Assembly: GCA_024408495.1 (NCBI GenBank) | Contig: JAKSUY010000006.1 | Span: 1 to 42,850, forward strand | Reading direction: 5' to 3' | From: Bacilli bacterium | Lineage (GTDB): Bacteria; Bacillota_I; Bacilli_A; RFN20; CAG-826 | DNA length: 42,850 bases | Shown here: positions 10,754 through 36,841 of the stretch, one piece after another | Layout of the letters: every line of letters starts with the position of its first letter | Position numbering within the stretch: the stretch's first letter is position 1 | Notes under the pieces: model-generated | Seen by the model: only the letters and a program-made list of their open reading frames with translations | What the model was told of the DNA's origin: nothing | Database searches by the model: none | Translations under genes and position numbers: made by a program

Positions 10754-10850
10754 ATATCCGAAAAGGTGGGAAAAATGACTAAAAACATATCCGAAAAGGT
10801 GTAAAAAGTAGTTGAAAACATATCCGAAAAGGTGTAAAGTGCTATTATGG
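10752..10850 (+). repeat. Three direct repeats of exactly 33 bp in the promoter of a DUF4143 ATPase
   Basis: Three units start at 10752, 10785 and 10818. Each carries the core ATATCCGAAAAGGTG (at 10754, 10787, 10820) followed by a purine-rich 13-18 nt stretch that is partly conserved (units 2 and 3 share ACATATCCGAAAAGGTGTAA). The cores are identical. The last unit ends in the gene's ATG at 10847. Such exact phasing (about three helical turns) suggests a cooperative protein-binding array. The copy number and 13-18 bp spacers exclude a CRISPR array. Confidence 0.9.
10812..10840 (+). promoter_or_regulatory. Promoter built around the third 33-bp repeat
   Basis: TTGAAA (10812-10817) and TAAAGT (10835-10840) are separated by exactly 17 bp, and that spacer is the repeat core with two leading bases. 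The predicted start of transcription is 10847, the A of the ATG, so the message would be leaderless. A protein bound to the repeat would cover the promoter, so repression, perhaps autoregulation, is the simplest model. Confidence 0.6.
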
Positions 10851-12214
10851 AAAACAGGGAAAAAGATATATTTCTTCGAAGAAAAGTGGACAAATTCTTA
10901 TCCGAATGGAAAAGCAATCCTAATCATAAACCACTTATTATTTCTGGAGCTAGGCAAATAGGGAAAACGAGTTCGATTAAAGAATTTGGCAAAACTTATG
11001 CTTCTTTTATAGAAATAAATTTTTTAACTATGCCAGAGTATAAAACGATTTTTAGCGCAAACTATCAAGTTAATGACATCATCAAAGAAATCACTCTAAT
11101 TAATCCAAAGTTAAAAATTATACCAAACAATACTCTTATATTATTCGATGAAATTCAAGAATTTCCCGATGCAATGACCTCACTAAAACCCTTTGCGCTT
11201 GATAAAAGATTCGATGTTATTTGTTCTGGATCTCTACTTGGAATACACTACAAAAGAATAAATAGTATACCAGTCGGTTTTAAAGAAGATTTTCAAATGC
11301 ATTCACTTGATTTTGAAGAATATCTTTGGGCACTAGGTTATAGCGAAGAACAAATTGAAGACATCTACACTTATTTAATTAATTTAAAACCATTACCAGT
11401 TGCTTATAAAGAAAAATTAAGTTCCTTATACCGCGATTACATTTTTTTGGGCGGAATGCCTGAAGTAGTAAAACAATTTGTGATAAATGGTACCTTTAAC
11501 GAACCGTTTAAAATTCAAAATCGCATTTATCGCGATTATGAAGACGATATAACAAAGTACGCCGAGGGATTAGACAAAACAAAAATTAAAAATATTTATC
11601 GTCATATAAATTCACAATTAGCAAAAGATAATCATAAATTCCAAATTAGTAAAATAGAAAAAGGACTTAAATCACGTGACTATGTTGGCGTAGATGAATG
11701 GCTAATTGACGCTGGGATCATAAACATTGCTCATAATTTAAATCAATTAGCAATACCGCTTGATAACTACGAAATTCCAAACAATTATCGGATTTATTAC
11801 TCAGATCACTCACTTTTTATATCTAAACTAGATGAAGAAAGCAAAAAAGACCTAATAATTAACAGCAATTTAGAAATATACAACGGGGCCCTATACGAAA
11901 GCCTGGTTTCTGAAGCGCTAATTAAATCAGGGTTTGATAGATTATATTTCTACAAAAACGATGACAATACATGCGAAATTGATTTTGTTGTGCGGATAAA
12001 AAATGAAATTATCCCTATTGAAGTAAAAAAAGAAAGGGGTAAAAGCAAATCGTTAAATGCGATATTAAATGATAAGAAATTAAACATCAAGCACGGAATA
12101 AAATTAACTAATGGAAATATTGGTTATACGAATAACATTATTACCATCCCCTATTATTTGTCCTTCTTCCTCAAAAGGTTTTTAAATGAAACCAAGTTGA
12201 TTAAATGGAAATAA
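10847..12214 (+). CDS. AAA_14/DUF4143 ATPase with PD-(D/E)XK-like C-terminus
   Basis: This 455-aa protein is of the widespread AAA_14 + DUF4143 type, whose physiological role is not established. Walker A is GARQIGKTS (34-42), Walker B LILFDE (97-102). A sensor-like SGSL follows at 127-130, and the HSLDFEEYLWALG segment (152-164) is diagnostic. The DUF4143 half carries a nuclease-fold signature: E351 in ALYESLV, D379 in CEIDFVV, and E392/K394 in IPIEVKK. All key residues are intact, so it is not a decayed copy. It lies alone, divergent from the GH39 operon, behind three 33-bp repeats. A second, only distantly similar member is at 22198-23568, also behind 33-bp-period repeats. It could be a defence, toxin-like or mobile-element maintenance factor. 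Confidence 0.92.
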   Translation: MENREKDIFLRRKVDKFLSEWKSNPNHKPLIISGARQIGKTSSIKEFGKTYASFIEINFLTMPEYKTIFSANYQVNDIIKEITLINPKLKIIPNNTLILFDEIQEFPDAMTSLKPFALDKRFDVICSGSLLGIHYKRINSIPVGFKEDFQMHSLDFEEYLWALGYSEEQIEDIYTYLINLKPLPVAYKEKLSSLYRDYIFLGGMPEVVKQFVINGTFNEPFKIQNRIYRDYEDDITKYAEGLDKTKIKNIYRHINSQLAKDNHKFQISKIEKGLKSRDYVGVDEWLIDAGIINIAHNLNQLAIPLDNYEIPNNYRIYYSDHSLFISKLDEESKKDLIINSNLEIYNGALYESLVSEALIKSGFDRLYFYKNDDNTCEIDFVVRIKNEIIPIEVKKERGKSKSLNAILNDKKLNIKHGIKLTNGNIGYTNNIITIPYYLSFFLKRFLNETKLIKWK

Positions 12215-13957: not shown

Positions 13958-16900
13958 CTATTCAGTTCTAGTTAAATTTACACCTTGAGGCAACTCTTCA
14001 ATTGGAAGAGCGTCGGTGCCGTCTGTAATATTGTAATCATAGTAGCCATACACTAATGGATCGGCATCAGGAAGGGATACCTTAGTAACAGTAATTTCAA
14101 CATTTTCAAATTCAGCAGGCAACGTAGTGCAGAAAGGAGTTAAAGTGCTAGTATGTGTATTAGCACCAAATATACCACAAGCTAAATATGTATCGCCAGG
14201 CTTATTTCCAACGGTGTGGTAATCGGATGTCGTATTCGCATCAGTAAATGTGACATTAACAAATCGAGAAGTATTATCAACCCATCCACATCTTCCAGCA
14301 TAACCAACTCCAACAAAGAAGGAGGCAAATTTGCCAAAATAAGCGCCAGCTATTCCAGCATTATCGGTTGCCGCGGTAAACGAACAATCTTCCATTGTAA
14401 AGCCGTTAATAAATCTAGCTAACATAACATTTGAAAGACTATTATTAGCGCAAAGCACTCTTGTGCAAGTAACATTTTTCATTAATCCGCCTTTTCCTAA
14501 ATAACCGAATATGCCAAACTCACCTGCTTTAGCAGCATCAATAGTGTGACCACGGCCGTCAAAGACACCTCTAAATCCGAAGGTGTTTTCGTTTGTGTTA
14601 CCAGGGCTTTGTGTAACCCATGAATTTCCGCAACTAACATTCGCAGTTTGCACATAATATCCAACTCTATTTCTTGGATCTGGTTCGGGATATGTTTGTG
14701 TTTCTTCTACTGTTCTATAATCAAATAGCGCTCTTAAAGTTGCAATATCTTTTACAACCGCTGTAACATTTAAAATTGCGACAACGCCCTTATATTCATT
14801 GTCTTTAAAAAGTCTACAAACTTTATAATTCCCGGCAGGAATGCTGACTTTAGACCAATCAACAACATTATCAGAAGCCAACTCTTTTAAAGTTGAATCT
14901 GGCCATAATCCAGCATCATCACCAATAACGCCTCCAGCATCAACAGTTAACTTATCTTCACCAACAACATGATAAACATTATCAATATCTAATAATTGGC
15001 CGTCGGTCTTAATCACTTCAAATCCTTTTAATCTCGTAAAATCAACTAATTCAGTGCCGCTTTGAGAATTATCACGACATATTCCTTGATAATCTCTAAC
15101 ATAAATTTTGATATTTTTTGTTACCGGATCGTGTGTTGCACCGCCTTCAGTACCACATGAAGCGTTTGCGTTGAAACTTTCAACGCCGATTGCCCAACGA
15201 ACTTTGTCTACACATGTAGCATCAATAGTAATATCCTCCATGCGACACCAACCTTGACCAGCAACAGTTGTACAAACAAGGAAAGAACCAGCAATGCTAT
15301 CATCTGAAGGATTATAGTTAGGATCAATATATTCAAAATCAACATCTATTTTTTGGATAGTAGCATTCGCAACATTGCGCGCTAATAAAGGTGCGTAACC
15401 AGCTCTCGCCCAACCTGTAACAGAAATATTCATTAAACCAGCGTTAGTAAATTTAACATCTTTAATTACCGCGCTCGTCATAAGTGTAGTAAATAATCCC
15501 ATGCCTTTTGTATAGAAATGATCAATGGTATGACCATTGCCATCAAACGTACCACCAAAGCCATGATCCGTACCAATTGTTGGAACACCCGGGTCAAAAT
15601 ATGGAGTCGTTTTTGATAATCCTAAATTAAGATCGTTGCCAAGCATAAAGTAACCAGTTACATTATTTGTCGCCGATGTTGGAGTAACAGCCTTCAACTC
15701 TTCATAATTGGTAATTAAATTATCAACACAAGTGAAAGCAACAGGAATAGTATGTTTATCACCACTTACAGTTTCTGTTGCGGTAAAGGTAATTGACTTA
15801 GTTTCCTTTTTGCCAATTACGTGATCAGCAAATAATGTTTCTCCATTAACGGTAGCGACATTACCACTTATTGCTGTAACTGCATCATCATCAGAAGAAA
15901 CAGTGTATGCAACACCACCTTGTCCACTTAACCCAGTAAGGTCAACATCAACTGTTGTGTGGCTATTAGAAAGACCGAAATTAAATTCACCATCAACGTG
16001 AGTAATAAAACTGCGCGAAACGTCACCACATGCGCATTTATAGTCATCTTGACCGGTGCCAACCACCCAATTATGGTCATGCGTTACACTAACTTCTATA
16101 AAGTTAGATTTAACTGCATCATAATCTGTGGTTGCAGGTAATGAAGCTTGAGCGTACACAGGTGCAGTGCCAACAGAATCCGCAGTGATGTCACTCCAAT
16201 CGGTAATTTCAGTACCTTCACCATCGTTACTGTCGTAATATTTAACGGTTGCTTCGACACCACCATATTTACCAGTTGGCGCAATTGCGAATTCAGGTTC
16301 ACAACAACATGTAGTAGCAACAGAGGTAAAGTTTTCGATTTCTTCGGTAACTTTACTAATAGTTATACCACATTCTTCAACTAAATCGATTTCTTCTGAC
16401 CCATATTGGCATAGAATCTGATCGCCAACATGTAAAGGAACTACTTCTTCTTCACCATCGCCCCATGGGTCAACTAAATAATCGCCATCTTGGTTAACAA
16501 AGAAGCAATCATCTGGTTCGTAAGTGTCAACAACATCACAAACTGAACAACTTATTTCAATTTTAAAGCCTGTGGGATCAAAGTAATCAAACGCATTATA
16601 TTCTGCCGTAGAAGGATTAGTAATCGTCGGTTCTTCAAGATCGTGTTCTACAGTAATTCCAACATATTTACGATTAGCGGCATAGTGGGTCGTCTCATTT
16701 ACATCTAATCTAACCCAATATTCTACTTCGCCGGTATCATCATGAACTAAATCTTTAGGATCAGTTATTTCAACCATTTGATCTTCTTGGTATGTGTCCC
16801 CTTTATAAATTCCTACAGTTAATTCGGCTTCACCATCATCATCATATTTAGGAGTAGCTTTGCTGGTATCAGGGAATACACCACAAACAGTTTCATAACT

Positions 16901-17467
16901 ATATTCTGGAATGTTATCGAAATCATTTTTAGGTTTATTAATAGTTATGCCATTTAAAACTTTCTCTATTTGCTTGTAAACAAGTTTAACTGAAGTATCG
17001 CCGACAACAAATGAAGTGCCGGTATTATATTTAACAGTAATTTCATTATTATTAATATCAAATTTATTATGGCAATTTTCGCAAATACCCTTTGCAGAAA
17101 ATCCTGTTAAATCTAAGGTATCGCCTACTTCGTAAGTCATTGTCAATGGATTATGTTGAATTTCCCAATCCGTAATCAAATGTCCTAACGGACCAATCGG
17201 TTCGGTTTTAGTATGTTCACAAACAGTACAAGTGTACGTTTGTTCACCAGCTTCCGTACAAGTTGCAGCCTTAGTTACAACCGGGTCTCCCCAAGTGTGT
17301 TCAGCTTTATCTTTTACTACATCCGTATGCTCACAAGTAGCAGCGTGCCAGTGATAAGTGTCATCTGACGACCATTCATCTGAGAATGTGTGGGTATGTT
17401 GATTACAACCGACAAGAACCATTGGTAAAACCAACAAACCGGCCATTTTTAACGATCTAAGTTTCAT
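13958..17467 (-). CDS. Giant surface lipoprotein with CxxC-rich and Ig-like modules and a beta-helix C-terminus
   Basis: This 1169-aa exported protein has a signal peptide and lipobox LVGC with lipidation at Cys21. Residues about 22-95 form a His/Cys-rich module (HTHTF, HWHAATCEH, CTVCEHTKTEPIGPLGH) of a type seen in Bacillota surface proteins. Next come Ig-like repeats with paired cysteines (CENCHNKF, CSVCD, CACGDVSR). Two beta-helix-like segments follow, each marked by GGTFDGNGHTID or GVFDGRGHTID and then a KNV/KDV strand. The second half of the first beta-helix matches the C-termini of the lipoproteins at 24158 and 26227. It is probably a glycan-binding or glycan-processing surface protein; no catalytic motif is evident. 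It is monocistronic, with a strong promoter and a LacI-type operator. Confidence 0.85.
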   Translation of the reverse strand: MKLRSLKMAGLLVLPMVLVGCNQHTHTFSDEWSSDDTYHWHAATCEHTDVVKDKAEHTWGDPVVTKAATCTEAGEQTYTCTVCEHTKTEPIGPLGHLITDWEIQHNPLTMTYEVGDTLDLTGFSAKGICENCHNKFDINNNEITVKYNTGTSFVVGDTSVKLVYKQIEKVLNGITINKPKNDFDNIPEYSYETVCGVFPDTSKATPKYDDDGEAELTVGIYKGDTYQEDQMVEITDPKDLVHDDTGEVEYWVRLDVNETTHYAANRKYVGITVEHDLEEPTITNPSTAEYNAFDYFDPTGFKIEISCSVCDVVDTYEPDDCFFVNQDGDYLVDPWGDGEEEVVPLHVGDQILCQYGSEEIDLVEECGITISKVTEEIENFTSVATTCCCEPEFAIAPTGKYGGVEATVKYYDSNDGEGTEITDWSDITADSVGTAPVYAQASLPATTDYDAVKSNFIEVSVTHDHNWVVGTGQDDYKCACGDVSRSFITHVDGEFNFGLSNSHTTVDVDLTGLSGQGGVAYTVSSDDDAVTAISGNVATVNGETLFADHVIGKKETKSITFTATETVSGDKHTIPVAFTCVDNLITNYEELKAVTPTSATNNVTGYFMLGNDLNLGLSKTTPYFDPGVPTIGTDHGFGGTFDGNGHTIDHFYTKGMGLFTTLMTSAVIKDVKFTNAGLMNISVTGWARAGYAPLLARNVANATIQKIDVDFEYIDPNYNPSDDSIAGSFLVCTTVAGQGWCRMEDITIDATCVDKVRWAIGVESFNANASCGTEGGATHDPVTKNIKIYVRDYQGICRDNSQSGTELVDFTRLKGFEVIKTDGQLLDIDNVYHVVGEDKLTVDAGGVIGDDAGLWPDSTLKELASDNVVDWSKVSIPAGNYKVCRLFKDNEYKGVVAILNVTAVVKDIATLRALFDYRTVEETQTYPEPDPRNRVGYYVQTANVSCGNSWVTQSPGNTNENTFGFRGVFDGRGHTIDAAKAGEFGIFGYLGKGGLMKNVTCTRVLCANNSLSNVMLARFINGFTMEDCSFTAATDNAGIAGAYFGKFASFFVGVGYAGRCGWVDNTSRFVNVTFTDANTTSDYHTVGNKPGDTYLACGIFGANTHTSTLTPFCTTLPAEFENVEITVTKVSLPDADPLVYGYYDYNITDGTDALPIEELPQGVNLTRTE

Positions 17468-22197: not shown

Positions 22198-23568
22198 TTA
22201 GTTTTTTATTAAAATGCATAAATAAATAGGAATAGTTGTTTTATCGGATTCAAAAGAAAGGCCTTTTACGCCGAATACCATGCGATTAACTTTTAATTGT
22301 GGATATTTTTGTTTAATGTGGTTTAAGGAAGATGTGGTATAGTTTTTAGAGCTTTTAACTTCAATAGCGGTCACTTTAAAATCAATTTCGATGAGAAAAT
22401 CTAATTCATAATGTTTAGTTTTATTTTCTTCTTTGCTGAGCAAAGAAAATTTATGACAATAAAGTTTTGCTCCTTTAGAAATTAATTGTTGAGCTACGAT
22501 TGATTCAAATATAGTACCGATGTTTATTATTTTCTTGCCTTGGATGAATTTAAAATAAATTTCGTTCATTTTTTCTTCAGATATTTGTATTAACTTAGAA
22601 AACAGTAGACCCGTATCACAGAAGTATAATTTAAATTTCTCTTCTTCAACATGAATGGCTAACGGCGATTCAAGAGTAGAAACAGTATTAATCCGATTAA
22701 CAATTTTAAAATCACAAAGATCATCTAGTGATTTTCTTATTTGATCATACCTTTTTTTGCCACTAATGCTTTTTATCACGAACCGGTTACTGGTAGTTTT
22801 CGCTAATTGGGATGGAATAGAATCAAAAATCGCAGTGCATACCGTATTGTGTAGACTATCATATTTACGTAAATCATCGCGATAAAGTTTTAATATATCT
22901 AATTTTTCATCGTTGGCTAATTTAAATGAATTAGTTTGCAAAAAAATTGATAAAACCTTTGGCATACCGCCAATAATCATATAGGTCCTAAACTTTTCTA
23001 AATATTGTTTATGGATACCAATTTCAATTGATTCGTGATTAGTTATCGAATCTTTTAATAATTCAAATGTATGATTATCCTCAATTGCCCAAAGGTATTC
23101 TTCAAAATCCATTGGGAACATATCTATCCTTCTTTCTTCCGAAGGAATCATAATATCCTTAACATTATCTTTGATGGAAATTAGAGATCCAGTTTCTATA
23201 TATCGGTATCTTCCATCATTAACTAAATCTTTAATCGCTTCTCTTGCTTTAGGGCAAAATTGAATTTCATCAAAAATGATGAGTCCGCCATCTTTTAATA
23301 CTTTATTTTGCGATAAAAAGAATTTGCGAAAGAAACCATTTATGTCTTTGACATTGTTAAATAGACTTTTTACATCGTCTGATTCATGACGAAAATCTAC
23401 TAATATGTAATTATTAGGAAAGCGCTTTTTAGCAAATTCCTCAACAATGGTTGATTTGCCAATACGACGAGCTCCTTCAATGAGCAATGCCGAATTTTGA
23501 ACAGGGGAATCTATCCATTCTTCCATTTGCTTATATATTTTTCTTCTAAATATAACTTTTTCTTCCAT
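22198..23568 (-). CDS. AAA_14/DUF4143 ATPase, second copy
   Basis: This 456-aa protein is of the same architecture as the protein at 10847 but differs along most of its length. Walker A is EGARRIGKST (31-40), Walker B LIIFDE (96-101), with DFEEYLWAIE in mid-protein and MIIGGMPKV opening the DUF4143 part. The C-terminal nuclease-like signature is present (YELDFLI then TAIEVKSSK). I moved the start from 23619 to 23568 because a consensus promoter lies in between and MEEKVIFRRK aligns with the usual N-terminus. Residues are intact, so it should be active as an ATPase. It lies alone between the uronate operon and the lipoprotein operon. The function of the family is unknown. Confidence 0.9.
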   Translation of the reverse strand: MEEKVIFRRKIYKQMEEWIDSPVQNSALLIEGARRIGKSTIVEEFAKKRFPNNYILVDFRHESDDVKSLFNNVKDINGFFRKFFLSQNKVLKDGGLIIFDEIQFCPKAREAIKDLVNDGRYRYIETGSLISIKDNVKDIMIPSEERRIDMFPMDFEEYLWAIEDNHTFELLKDSITNHESIEIGIHKQYLEKFRTYMIIGGMPKVLSIFLQTNSFKLANDEKLDILKLYRDDLRKYDSLHNTVCTAIFDSIPSQLAKTTSNRFVIKSISGKKRYDQIRKSLDDLCDFKIVNRINTVSTLESPLAIHVEEEKFKLYFCDTGLLFSKLIQISEEKMNEIYFKFIQGKKIINIGTIFESIVAQQLISKGAKLYCHKFSLLSKEENKTKHYELDFLIEIDFKVTAIEVKSSKNYTTSSLNHIKQKYPQLKVNRMVFGVKGLSFESDKTTIPIYLCILIKN

Positions 23569-23575
23569 AGTCGAA

Positions 23576-23604
23576 ATTATAAAGCTTTTATACAATAAAG
23601 TAAA
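23576..23604 (-). promoter_or_regulatory. Consensus promoter of the second DUF4143 ATPase, leaderless arrangement
   Basis: On the minus strand TTTACT (23599-23604), a 17-bp spacer and TATAAT (23576-23581) lie 7 nt before ATG 23568. No Shine-Dalgarno is present. The transcript should begin within one base of the ATG. Confidence 0.7.
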
Positions 23605-23614
23605 TACAAAACAA

Positions 23615-23680
23615 CACAAAGTTAAAAGTAATTATGACTAAATATTGCACAAAGTTAAAAGTGATATTTATTTTTTAATA
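23615..23680 (-). repeat. Two direct repeats with 33-bp period upstream of the second ATPase
   Basis: CACAAAGTTAAAAGT (plus-strand reading) occurs at 23615-23629 and 23648-23662, exactly 33 bp apart. The nearer copy ends 10 bp upstream of the -35 box. The period is the same as before the first ATPase gene, while the motif itself is different. Confidence 0.85.
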
Positions 23681-24157: not shown

Positions 24158-26224
24158 CTAGCCAACTAAAATAACTTCAAATCCAGTAATAGTGGATCCT
24201 GCTGCAGCTCCTGTAGTTCCAGTCCAATTACCCTTTTCAAGCAATTCATAACCATTATGCGTAGTGTACATATAATCTTGACAATATGTAATATTGTTAA
24301 CGCCTTTGCCAGATGCATTATATTGGTTAATATTTAATTTTTTAACTGGACAACCAGTAAAAATAAAATCTGTACAAGTCGCATCAATTTGACATTCAGT
24401 AACTTTTGTAGATGTGCTACTAGTTACCCCAACATATAAAGCATTTGAGCACTGTTCTATTTCACCGGCGGTTAGGTCTGCTGTTGGCGAAAAAATGTAA
24501 CTAAAATTAGCATCGACATTGTCTATTACAGCATTGCCTTTTGTATATCTTGCAAGCAACGGGGCATAAGTCCCGGCTCTTTCGTATCCAGAAATGCCAC
24601 CTTTAAGTTCGCATAATCCAGCATTATCGAAAAGGATATCTTTAATAGTACCAGATAATTGTCCAAACAACCCGACGCCTTTAGTATAGAAATTTCTAAT
24701 GGTATGATATCTTCCATCTAGAGTGCCAACAAATTCATTAACATTAGCTGTTGTTCCCCAATTCGCAACCCAAGGAGTATCTTTTGTTAAACCGCAATCA
24801 ATGTCATTTGCTAACAAATAATAACCATTAATATCAGGATCTTTTTTAGTAGTCTGACCAAACGCATGGACAACCTTTAAATCATCAAAAGTCTTAACTA
24901 GTTTATTCGCAATATTATAGCTAACGGTTATTTCATGGACTATGTTAGTTTCAACTTCTTCAGCGATATATGTTTTTGTAATTTCATCAACACTAACTTC
25001 ACTAGGGAGCGATGGGAATACTTCACTACGATTAACAGTGATAGGTTGATCTTGTGATACAACATTGTCATTTTCATCTTTTACAACATACTTAATGCTA
25101 TCATCGGAACTTAATTTAGAGAAATCTACATTTGCTGTTGTTGTAGAATCGAAGTCAAAATTAAAGTCAACTTGGGTTCTAAATGAACGCTCAGTTTTAC
25201 CACAAACAGTGCACACTAATTTATCATAAAATTTATCACTTACCCATTCTACAGAGGGATGAGTAACAGTTATATCGCATGTTTCAGTAACGGTATCGTA
25301 AGAAGCGGTGCTAGCAAGCGTAGCGGTAGCGGTATATGGAGAACCCGATACATTAAATGCGTTTTTAGCATCAGGATCTACAACATTATTATCTTTATCT
25401 TTAACTTCTACCGTTATATTCGCATCTTTATCAATTTTAGCGTAAGGAGCAAAAACTACTTTATCACCACAATGAACATCTTGGTCTTCCATACCAAGAA
25501 TTTCGTTAATGGCTTTAATAACAGTTAATCCGGTAATGTTACTAGTTTGACCACTATAGTTAGCGATTACTTTAGTCTCGCCGACCGCAAAAGAACTTCC
25601 ACTATTATCATAAGTAAACACGATATCTTTGGCAGGAATTACTAAATCTTCTCCACATTGACTACAATGAGCTTTAAAGGTTAAACCGTCAGGATTAAAT
25701 TGTTCAAAAGCATGATAAATCGTTTTAATTAGCTTTCCTTCTACATTTAAAGAAGTAATGACGTGATCTAACGACTTTCCGCTTTCAAATGTTGGAGCGC
25801 CTTCTTCTTCTTTAAATTCACCACATGCACACGTCTTAAAGTAAATAGCTGGATGATTACAAGTAGCCTCTTCTTTTAAATTAGCATTCTCAGGGAGAAC
25901 TACGGTTTGATCATATTTATGCACGCCAGTCGCAGGAATAGATTCAGTTTTTCCATAGCTACAAACCGAACAAGTGCATACTTGAGCGCCTTCAGTGCAA
26001 CACGTCGGCTCAACAGTAACAACTGGATCAGAGAAAGTATGTTCTTCCTTCACATCTTCTCCACACTTTTCGCACACATGATGATGATAAGTTTCATCAA
26101 GGTAAGTGTAATCACTCCAACGATGATCACATTCTTCCTTCTTTTCACCATTATTACAAGAGACAAGCGAAACCGGAATAGCGATTAAGGAAGCAAATAA
26201 TAAATTCTTAAATTTAATAGTCAT
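24158..26224 (-). CDS. Surface lipoprotein with five CxxC modules and beta-helix C-terminus
   Basis: This 688-aa lipoprotein has lipobox LVSC (Cys23). After lipidation comes the His/Cys-rich module (CDHRWSDYTY, HHHVCEKCGED, CSVCSYGKTESIPATG), then CACGEFKE, an Ig-like unit with CSQCGEDL, a second Ig-like unit, and CTVCGKTERSF. The last 220 residues are a beta-helix-like domain (FVGTLDGRYHTIRNFYTKGVGLF, then YERAGTYAPLLAR), closely paralleling the 1169-aa lipoprotein at 13958. It sits 2 nt downstream of the next lipoprotein gene, with GGAGAA before the start, as the last gene of the transport operon. It is probably a surface glycan-binding component. Confidence 0.85.
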   Translation of the reverse strand: MTIKFKNLLFASLIAIPVSLVSCNNGEKKEECDHRWSDYTYLDETYHHHVCEKCGEDVKEEHTFSDPVVTVEPTCCTEGAQVCTCSVCSYGKTESIPATGVHKYDQTVVLPENANLKEEATCNHPAIYFKTCACGEFKEEEGAPTFESGKSLDHVITSLNVEGKLIKTIYHAFEQFNPDGLTFKAHCSQCGEDLVIPAKDIVFTYDNSGSSFAVGETKVIANYSGQTSNITGLTVIKAINEILGMEDQDVHCGDKVVFAPYAKIDKDANITVEVKDKDNNVVDPDAKNAFNVSGSPYTATATLASTASYDTVTETCDITVTHPSVEWVSDKFYDKLVCTVCGKTERSFRTQVDFNFDFDSTTTANVDFSKLSSDDSIKYVVKDENDNVVSQDQPITVNRSEVFPSLPSEVSVDEITKTYIAEEVETNIVHEITVSYNIANKLVKTFDDLKVVHAFGQTTKKDPDINGYYLLANDIDCGLTKDTPWVANWGTTANVNEFVGTLDGRYHTIRNFYTKGVGLFGQLSGTIKDILFDNAGLCELKGGISGYERAGTYAPLLARYTKGNAVIDNVDANFSYIFSPTADLTAGEIEQCSNALYVGVTSSTSTKVTECQIDATCTDFIFTGCPVKKLNINQYNASGKGVNNITYCQDYMYTTHNGYELLEKGNWTGTTGAAAGSTITGFEVILVG

Positions 26225-35209: not shown

Positions 35210-36841
35210 TTATTTACCGTAAATGCCTCTTCTAGCTTTATAAATTTGTTGCATAGTATCATCTACAGTAGATTTATCTCCTTCATTGGTATGAAGATGA
35301 GTCGCTAAAGAAGTAGTAGCGCTTGGTCCAATATCAAATCCGTTAAAATATTGGAAATTAGTATTAAATGCATTTGAAGGAGATATTGGATACATAGTAT
35401 CGGTCTTTTCGTTTTCCTTAAAATCAATTAAACTACGCGTATATGGAGTTAAGGTTGCTTTAGTAGCTTCATCAACCTTATAATTTAGCGCGACTAAAGT
35501 ATTCGTAATTTTCGTAAAATTGACTAATTCCTTATCGGTGTTGATATATTGAATAAATTTTTTGGCGACATCAATTGATGCTTGATTACGTCCTTTCTTT
35601 ACAAATTCAATTGACACAATTGAATCACCAAGTACACGTCTACCATCAACAGCGGTTTTTGTATCTTCATCATAGAAAGGTAAAGGCATATAAGCAAGAT
35701 GAGATTCTTCGCCTAAGATATTGAAACCAGTTTGGCTTTTTAAATCATTAATGACAGATGTCGCTTCCGATTGCCACCAAGTACCATCAACGAGCATCGC
35801 ATATTTATTATCTTTGTAATCAGAAAGACCAGCATAACTAGCTAAGAAATAGTTTTCAGCTGTAGTATGGTTAATACTAGTATTGAAGACGTCTTTCTTA
35901 TCAAGAGCGTGTTCTCCTCCTGACCACGAAACCGCATTATCAATAAATGTTTTAGCCATTTCTACACCATTTTTAACCGCTGGGGTTGCAACAGCGCGAT
36001 AACCATTTTCTTCAGAAAGCGTTATTTCTTCTGTTTCGTTAAAATTAAGAGTTCCATCACCATTTTCTTTGTAAACCGTTAAACTATCTTTAGGATAATA
36101 GTTTTTAGCCCAATCGGTAACACCAGCTTGATTAGCCATTAAGTTTCTAAACATAGCTGAAACATAGGTAGAATAATATTGGCCACTGAAAACCACTGGC
36201 TTAATCTTCGATTCACCTTGCATTTCATCGCATAAATCAACGAATTCTTGCCAGAATTCAGGATAAGCTTTCCCTTTCCATTCAGTGCCTGAAGGAACAT
36301 CAGCCTCCTTATCGGCGTACCCATATTCTTTAAAATAATCTTTGTTATACACTATTCCATAACTTCCAAAGAAGTGAGGAACAGCATAATACTTATTATC
36401 TTTCTTGAAATAATCTTTTTGCTCAACAGTTAATTTGTCTTCGATTTTTTTGCCAGTTTCATATTCGTTTGCACCCGCAACAGCATCAGTTATGTCTTCG
36501 ACTATATTGTTGCCAATACAATAATGTAATTCGTTTTGTTCAACAAAGAATAAATCGGCATCAATTGCTGAAATTTCAGAAGGTTTGGGGTTAACAGCGG
36601 TTCCGCCAACGATATGAGTCTGAACGCCTTTTTTGCCATCTTCGAAGGAAATATCCTTAACGAGTTCTTCGAAAGCTTTTCTTTGCGTTTCAAGCCAGTT
36701 GTTCTTTAAACCTAATTCAACTGAATAGATTCTTAGTTGCGTCTTAGTATTATCAATGTCTTCACCTTTATTACAACTAACAGTCGTACTTAAAGCAACG
36801 ACCGACATTGCCATTAAAGGTAATATAAATGTCTTCTTCAT
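35210..36841 (-). CDS. Extracellular sugar-binding lipoprotein of the ABC importer
   Basis: This 543-aa solute-binding protein has lipobox TVSC (Cys23). GSYGIVYNKDYFKEYGY, with YAVPHFFG just before, and FVDLCDEM are the typical hinge and ligand-pocket segments of family-1 carbohydrate-binding proteins, and WKGKAYPEFW and several Trp line the expected cleft. The length is at the upper end for the family, as for oligosaccharide-specific members. It is the first gene of a seven-gene operon (binding protein, two permeases, four lipoproteins) with intergenic gaps of 2-24 nt. Its promoter has an extended -10 and an upstream LacI-type operator. Confidence 0.93.
   Translation of the reverse strand: MKKTFILPLMAMSVVALSTTVSCNKGEDIDNTKTQLRIYSVELGLKNNWLETQRKAFEELVKDISFEDGKKGVQTHIVGGTAVNPKPSEISAIDADLFFVEQNELHYCIGNNIVEDITDAVAGANEYETGKKIEDKLTVEQKDYFKKDNKYYAVPHFFGSYGIVYNKDYFKEYGYADKEADVPSGTEWKGKAYPEFWQEFVDLCDEMQGESKIKPVVFSGQYYSTYVSAMFRNLMANQAGVTDWAKNYYPKDSLTVYKENGDGTLNFNETEEITLSEENGYRAVATPAVKNGVEMAKTFIDNAVSWSGGEHALDKKDVFNTSINHTTAENYFLASYAGLSDYKDNKYAMLVDGTWWQSEATSVINDLKSQTGFNILGEESHLAYMPLPFYDEDTKTAVDGRRVLGDSIVSIEFVKKGRNQASIDVAKKFIQYINTDKELVNFTKITNTLVALNYKVDEATKATLTPYTRSLIDFKENEKTDTMYPISPSNAFNTNFQYFNGFDIGPSATTSLATHLHTNEGDKSTVDDTMQQIYKARRGIYGK

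Follow-up and report, generated by a model that had tools for sequence, protein, structure and literature searches.

Direct-repeat arrays of clade-specific period at the promoters of DUF4143 ATPase-nuclease genes: candidate self-bound operators

In two clades of the DUF4143 family, genes for ATPase-nucleases carry short arrays of direct repeats at their own promoters, and the period of the array, 23 bp or about 33 bp, is set by the clade of the encoded protein. We consider it probable, from sequence comparison, that these are self-bound operator arrays, whereby the encoded ATPase-nuclease would bind the array at its own promoter and set its own transcription. Four observations form the basis of this reading, namely the coupling of array to gene, the clade-fixed period, motifs that three genes keep to their own promoters, and the co-variation of motif bases with a protein helix in the 23-bp clade.

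Two DUF4143 genes of one genome and their arrays

The window referred to throughout is the whole 42,850-nt stretch of DNA that was analysed (contig JAKSUY010000006.1 of a Bacilli bacterium), and its two DUF4143 genes and their upstream features are as follows.

22198..23568, minus strand: second DUF4143 ATPase-nuclease, the focus gene (L008), 456 aa, with AAA_14 ATPase, winged helix-turn-helix and PD-(D/E)XK nuclease; 33-bp clade, PDC-S01 match
23576..23581, minus strand: putative -10 box TATAAT of the focus gene, read from the sequence, 7 nt before the ATG
23599..23604, minus strand: putative -35 box TTTACT of the focus gene, read from the sequence, with a 17-nt spacer to TATAAT
23615..23629, minus strand: focus array copy 2, ACTTTTAACTTTGTG on the coding strand, offset by 33 bp from copy 1, with the -35 box about 10 bp downstream
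23648..23662, minus strand: focus array copy 1, ACTTTTAACTTTGTG on the coding strand
10847..12214, plus strand: first DUF4143 ATPase-nuclease (L005), with the Pfam domains and a PDC-S01 match of 476 bits; same 33-bp clade
10754..10768, plus strand: first-gene array copy 1, ATATCCGAAAAGGTG
10787..10801, plus strand: first-gene array copy 2, ATATCCGAAAAGGTG
10820..10834, plus strand: first-gene array copy 3, ATATCCGAAAAGGTG, filling the 17-nt spacer between the putative -35 box TTGAAA (10812-10817) and the putative -10 box TAAAGT (10835-10840)

The focus protein scores well above the Pfam gathering cut-offs for both PF13173 (AAA_14, 86.2 bits against 27) and PF13635 (DUF4143, 65.8 bits against 28.1), and its start is best read as the ATG at 23568 rather than the listed TTG at 23619. 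The original prediction placed two copies of CACAAAGTTAAAAGT 33 bp apart upstream of this gene, and exact 15-mers do lie at 23615-23629 and 23648-23662 with that offset, the repeat matching at 17 of 18 positions when extended. It also held that the motif is unlike that of the first gene while the period is identical, which is borne out by ACTTTTAACTTTGTG and by the three copies of ATATCCGAAAAGGTG, spaced 33/33. Across the 42,850 bp, 15-mers recurring within 75 bp occur in these two arrays alone and always at 33, and in 4000 dinucleotide shuffles of the 230 bp upstream the score of the focus array was never reached, whichever period between 12 and 60 was considered. The suggestion that both genes are probably leaderless comes out as plausible, with the promoters read from the sequence: the putative TTTACT-N17-TATAAT of the focus gene ends 7 nt ahead of its ATG, which makes a leaderless transcript plausible there, and the first gene looks leaderless as well.

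The source genome (1.28 Mb in 72 contigs, approximately 85% complete) contains 11 DUF4143 matches. Among the upstream regions read, three genes have an array of their own at 32-33 bp (AAAGTCGCTTGAATTTTCG, ATATCCGAAAAGGTG and ACTTTTAACTTTGTG) and two at 23 bp (GCAAAATAGTAAAG and AACATAAAGTGATTTTCG), and four intact genes have none. L001, L007, L009 and L011, DUF4143 genes of other clades, are without arrays, and close to the promoter of L009 there is instead an inverted repeat, GGGAAA/TTTCCC. A further locus, L002 (G000:C10:22157-22660), holds a broken DUF4143 gene with a decayed array closely like that of the first gene of the window, and here gene and array seem to decay jointly. Elsewhere in the window, three large minus-strand ORFs, at 13958-17467 (1169 aa), 24158-26224 (688 aa) and 35210-36841 (543 aa), gave no Pfam match at E 0.001.

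Two periods, fixed by protein clade

Direct repeats with periods of 12-60 were scored in the 230 bp around the gene start, with a core sample of 146 DUF4143 genes from genomes of the same genus and taxonomic family (all sets together comprise approximately 300 genes). A score of at least 18 was found upstream of 54.8% of the 146 genes, inside 0% of genes and in 0 of 1460 shuffles, and the periods at this score were 23 (37 genes), 46, that is 2x23 (7 genes), 32 (9 genes), 33 (23 genes) and 34 (4 genes), with no others. On the protein tree, a 23-bp array is present in 50 of the 52 genes of one clade and a 32-34-bp array in 42 of the 55 genes of a second clade, neither clade carrying the period of the other; in about a quarter of the genes of this second clade, an array was not detectable by the scan. 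The remaining DUF4143 clades are without arrays beyond one weak 33-bp match and one match of another period inside a gene start. Spacing in these paralogues is thus far from random, as originally proposed, and is fixed within a clade; however, the single conserved period expected at the outset has to be replaced by two.

The control set comprised 458 other genes in the same loci, three of which view the same arrays from the opposite side, and 16 control genes (3.5%) had a repeat score of at least 14, with scattered periods and no peak. Chance and low complexity are ruled out by the shuffles, the gene interiors and the 455 neighbouring genes. Functionless minisatellites, arising by chance or made by slippage, might be suspected in DNA that is AT-rich, and the identity of copies within an array does show homogenisation, but two sharp, clade-specific periods that recur across phyla and are absent from control genes and other DUF4143 clades leave this explanation with almost no probability.

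The repeats, of fixed period, sit at the promoter of the gene itself, which is the arrangement of an operator array. Most arrays of the 23-bp clade comprise 3-4 repeats and most of those of the 33-bp clade 2-4. Of the 37 genes of the 23-bp clade whose promoter is clear, 18 have a -35 box that begins 0-10 bp past the array. In the clade-23 motif a variable core is set in a weak common frame ([CT][AG]CAAA..., A at 13, T at 15), and the clade-33 motif is made up of a 5' part that varies, an A/T tract and TGTG.

The periods are kept across a range of bacteria that runs from mycoplasmas to Bacteroidota, Spirochaetota, Fusobacteria, Actinobacteria, Chlorobi and Gammaproteobacteria. Loci of the 33-bp clade were found in named genomes of Bacteroidota, Fibrobacterota, Spirochaetota, Clostridia, Bacilli, Negativicutes, Lentisphaeria, Coriobacteriia, Elusimicrobiota and Proteobacteria, and the period of their arrays at a score of at least 14 is always 31-33. 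For the 23-bp clade, 51 of 53 arrays from other families of the same class, mycoplasma-like genomes included, are at 23 or 46. Plasmid and phage-like records contributed arrays from Bacteroides (23), Collinsella (23 and 33), Prosthecochloris (23), Glaesserella (33), Fusobacterium (32), Segatella (33) and one phage-like contig (33); in the same scan the DUF4143 loci of Rhizobium and Ruminococcus albus had no clear array. Mycoplasma-like genomes that read TGA as Trp hold the members L300, L317, L322, L323, L325 and L327-L333, most of them with recognisable 23-bp arrays.

Private motifs and the protein segment that tracks them

The motifs of three genes, the focus gene, the first gene of the window and L102, were searched for in their genomes, allowing one mismatch at most. 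The focus motif has three sites in the 1.28-Mb genome, these being the two array copies and one isolated one-mismatch site on another contig, which is about background given that a reversed-pattern control also gives one match. The other two motifs were found in their own arrays alone, apart from the related decayed relic. The private specificity among paralogues that had been predicted is therefore upheld in that three motifs are private to their own promoter, but active avoidance of cross-talk finds no support. Two paralogues of one genome do not differ more in motif than two proteins of different genomes that are as closely related, either in clade 23 (43 pairs, p=0.73) or in clade 33 (19 pairs, p=0.22), and selection for orthogonality was set aside on these tests. 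Helix and site may simply have drifted together as the motifs diverged.

This confinement to one locus also bears on whether the arrays belong to mobile or replicating DNA. The iterons of plasmid Rep proteins are tandem direct repeats of about two helical turns beside the gene of their binder, with specificity that differs between relatives, and they are similar to the DUF4143 arrays in period and specificity. DUF4143 genes also occur on plasmids and phage-like contigs, and their AAA+ fold is like that of initiators. Nonetheless, replication- or partition-type iterons, or the insertion or homing site of a mobile element, appear very improbable to us as an explanation, considering that most arrays consist of 2-4 repeats directly adjoining the promoter of an ATPase-nuclease whose gene is mostly chromosomal, that the three motifs were without a second locus, the related relic excepted, and that no origin, replication genes or replication partner gene were seen at the loci examined. 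BrickBuilt of Porphyromonas gingivalis, a 23-nt minisatellite with one shared sequence at 19 loci that lies within a MITE with terminal inverted repeats (PMC4596501), has 23-nt tandem repeats in common with the DUF4143 arrays, however, the latter differ in sequence from array to array and each occupies a single locus. A MITE of this type is ruled out, with the DUF4143 motifs at a single locus per genome bar the one relic.

Which part of the protein follows the motif was addressed in clade 23 with 118 protein-motif pairs, using circular alignment of the motifs and the similarity of protein windows corrected for the rest of the protein. Similarity in motif columns 6-13 is explained, over and above the remainder of the protein, by similarity in residues 245-255 (partial r 0.173, against a mean of 0.010 and sd of 0.037 over all windows), the twelve best windows all lie within residues 239-260, and an earlier motif alignment gives the same peak. 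Among clade-23 proteins less than 45% identical, the same helix segment is the best predictor of the motif (0.447 vs 0.375, sd 0.018). Among approximately 9600 residue-column pairs, that of residue 250 and motif column 11 belongs to the top two; in weighted counts Lys goes with G (8.5 of 8.8), Pro with A (5.4 of 6.6) and Val with A (3.1 of 3.2), and column 12 is C for most Asn and Arg. Residue 250 and column 11 also co-change across 57 disjoint nearest pairs (p=1.1e-4), which places this residue first among 419 residue columns; of the windows in this test, that of the helix does not lead (0.27, sd 0.17), and it is the single residue 250 alone that ranks first. The effect size of the coupling is modest. 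Residue 342 in the nuclease domain (L004 numbering) co-varies with columns 1-3, the 5' frame, as strongly as residue 250 does with column 11, and so other parts of the protein may contact DNA or shared ancestry may contribute.

An AlphaFold model from the 23-bp clade (pLDDT 90.5) places residue 250 at the start of a helix at 249-261, which comes after a helix at 234-242 and is followed by a wing strand, and the model suggests that 249-261 is the recognition helix of the DUF4143 winged helix. In variability, positions 249, 250 and 253 rank at the 95th-98th percentile, and T251 and Y255, between and around them, are nearly invariant. This is the pattern of a DNA-reading helix, and most likely the encoded protein reads its own array. 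A separate regulator binding the arrays, with the gene travelling with its array, would be the other way to couple the two; regulators can bind evenly spaced repeats, and protein and array would then be co-inherited. We regard such a regulator as improbable, given that gene-specific motifs would need one regulator per gene, yet most DUF4143 genes are solitary (80 of 108 have no same-strand ORF within 40 bp downstream), and that, among distant proteins, it is specifically the recognition helix that the motif follows.

In the 33-bp clade no protein window stands out with either of two motif alignments, a possible reason being the low copy number of most arrays and a noisy motif register. For the focus protein, the model (pLDDT 87.2) has helices at 244-256, 265-269 and 274-286 and a strand at 290-296, which we read as the equivalent helix-turn-helix (244-286) and wing (290-296), and by analogy self-recognition may extend to this clade. 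The original prediction that motif groups track protein groups accordingly stands at the level of period and clade and, for the private bases, in the 23-bp clade, where they follow the recognition helix. Motif type is in any case not independent of protein type, with the period tracking the clade and clade-23 bases tracking residues 245-255.

Operator reading and a defence-candidate family

Under the self-bound operator reading, several copies of the ATPase-nuclease would occupy the 2-5 repeats at the promoter of their gene side by side, with gene-specific bases read by the winged helix of every subunit, and the repeat of 23 or approximately 33 bp would correspond to the footprint and stacking distance of one subunit in the respective clade. 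The assembled complex, on or beside the -35/-10 region, would then set transcription of the gene. Autorepression seems the likelier sign of control, as the nuclease would have to stay low until needed, like other potentially harmful nucleases. More speculatively, 23 and 33 bp exceed whole helical turns by about 1.5-2 bp, so that neighbouring subunits may be turned against each other by 50-70 degrees, similar to what is seen in helical AAA+ assemblies. Binding, oligomerisation and repression are what we infer from the observed coupling, together with the same logic in the 33-bp clade of the focus gene. Control proteins of toxin-antitoxin and restriction-modification systems are DNA binders that control their own promoter through repeated sites, usually palindromes for dimers. 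The DUF4143 arrays are like these in being candidates for self-control through repeated sites, however, they are direct repeats of fixed period, and the proposed binder is the ATPase-nuclease itself, mostly without a partner gene.

All DUF4143 proteins tested match PDC-S01, a single-gene candidate in PADLOC, members of array-less clades included. The focus protein does so at 314 bits, the first-gene protein at 476 bits (the 33-bp clade thus at 314-476 bits) and L004 at 185 bits, and the AAA_14-DUF4143 make-up is the same. PDC-S01 is an ATPase fused to a PD-(D/E)XK nuclease and was the fourth most common defence candidate in prokaryotes in a 2026 survey; validation of phage defence is pending for most PDC candidates, and defence activity of the PDC-S01 family itself is unproven (PMC12988326). 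The Walker A/B residues K, D and E of the ATPase are present in 100% of both clades, and the nuclease residues are nearly as constant, at 99-100% for E346, D348, E362 and K364 in clade 23 and at 99% for E377, 90% for D379, 96% for E392 and 100% for K394 in clade 33. Fold comparison indicates a predicted fold resembling Orc1/Cdc6 on origin DNA, STAND/NLR ATPases, RuvB and clamp loaders, and a sequence search of the PDB gave one weak match per clade and nothing further. The open-licence papers searched on DUF4143, COG1373, PDC-S01 and repeats gave no description of promoter arrays, of the two periods or of the helix-motif link, which is weak evidence of absence.

These properties also invite a bolder and, in our estimation, rather doubtful idea, in which this common defence-candidate family would use its self-encoded, gene-specific array as a lock. 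The array, read by the fast-evolving helix, would park the ATPase-nuclease in an inactive state on its own promoter, and an invader that displaces the protein would thereby increase its synthesis and set the nuclease free, with release or re-expression once the array is vacated, making the array part of the defence. The almost full conservation of the Walker A/B and nuclease residues in array-bearing genes speaks for this, in that the DNA-bound protein would keep both enzymes, as do the PDC-S01 match of every member and the likeness of the predicted fold to Orc1/Cdc6 on DNA and to STAND/NLR ATPases. However, the array-less DUF4143 clades match PDC-S01 too, and the array is therefore not needed for the presumed function.

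For PDC-S01 the arrays provide a first concrete handle, in the form of a probable binding place, helix, spacing and promoter. With its own site beside every gene, the family amounts to a ready set of protein-site pairs for the study of winged-helix recognition and for mutually independent regulators. If the lock were real, the family would be a natural library of thousands of paired helices and sites, from which the winged-helix DNA-recognition code could be read.

Two further details of array anatomy may be recorded. Arrays of period 46 upstream of L125, L111, L077, L080, L295, L306 and L327 comprise two alternating types of 23-bp unit, which hints at a higher-order, perhaps dimeric, organisation. 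Upstream of L278 lies an unusually long array of approximately eight near-identical 23-bp units.
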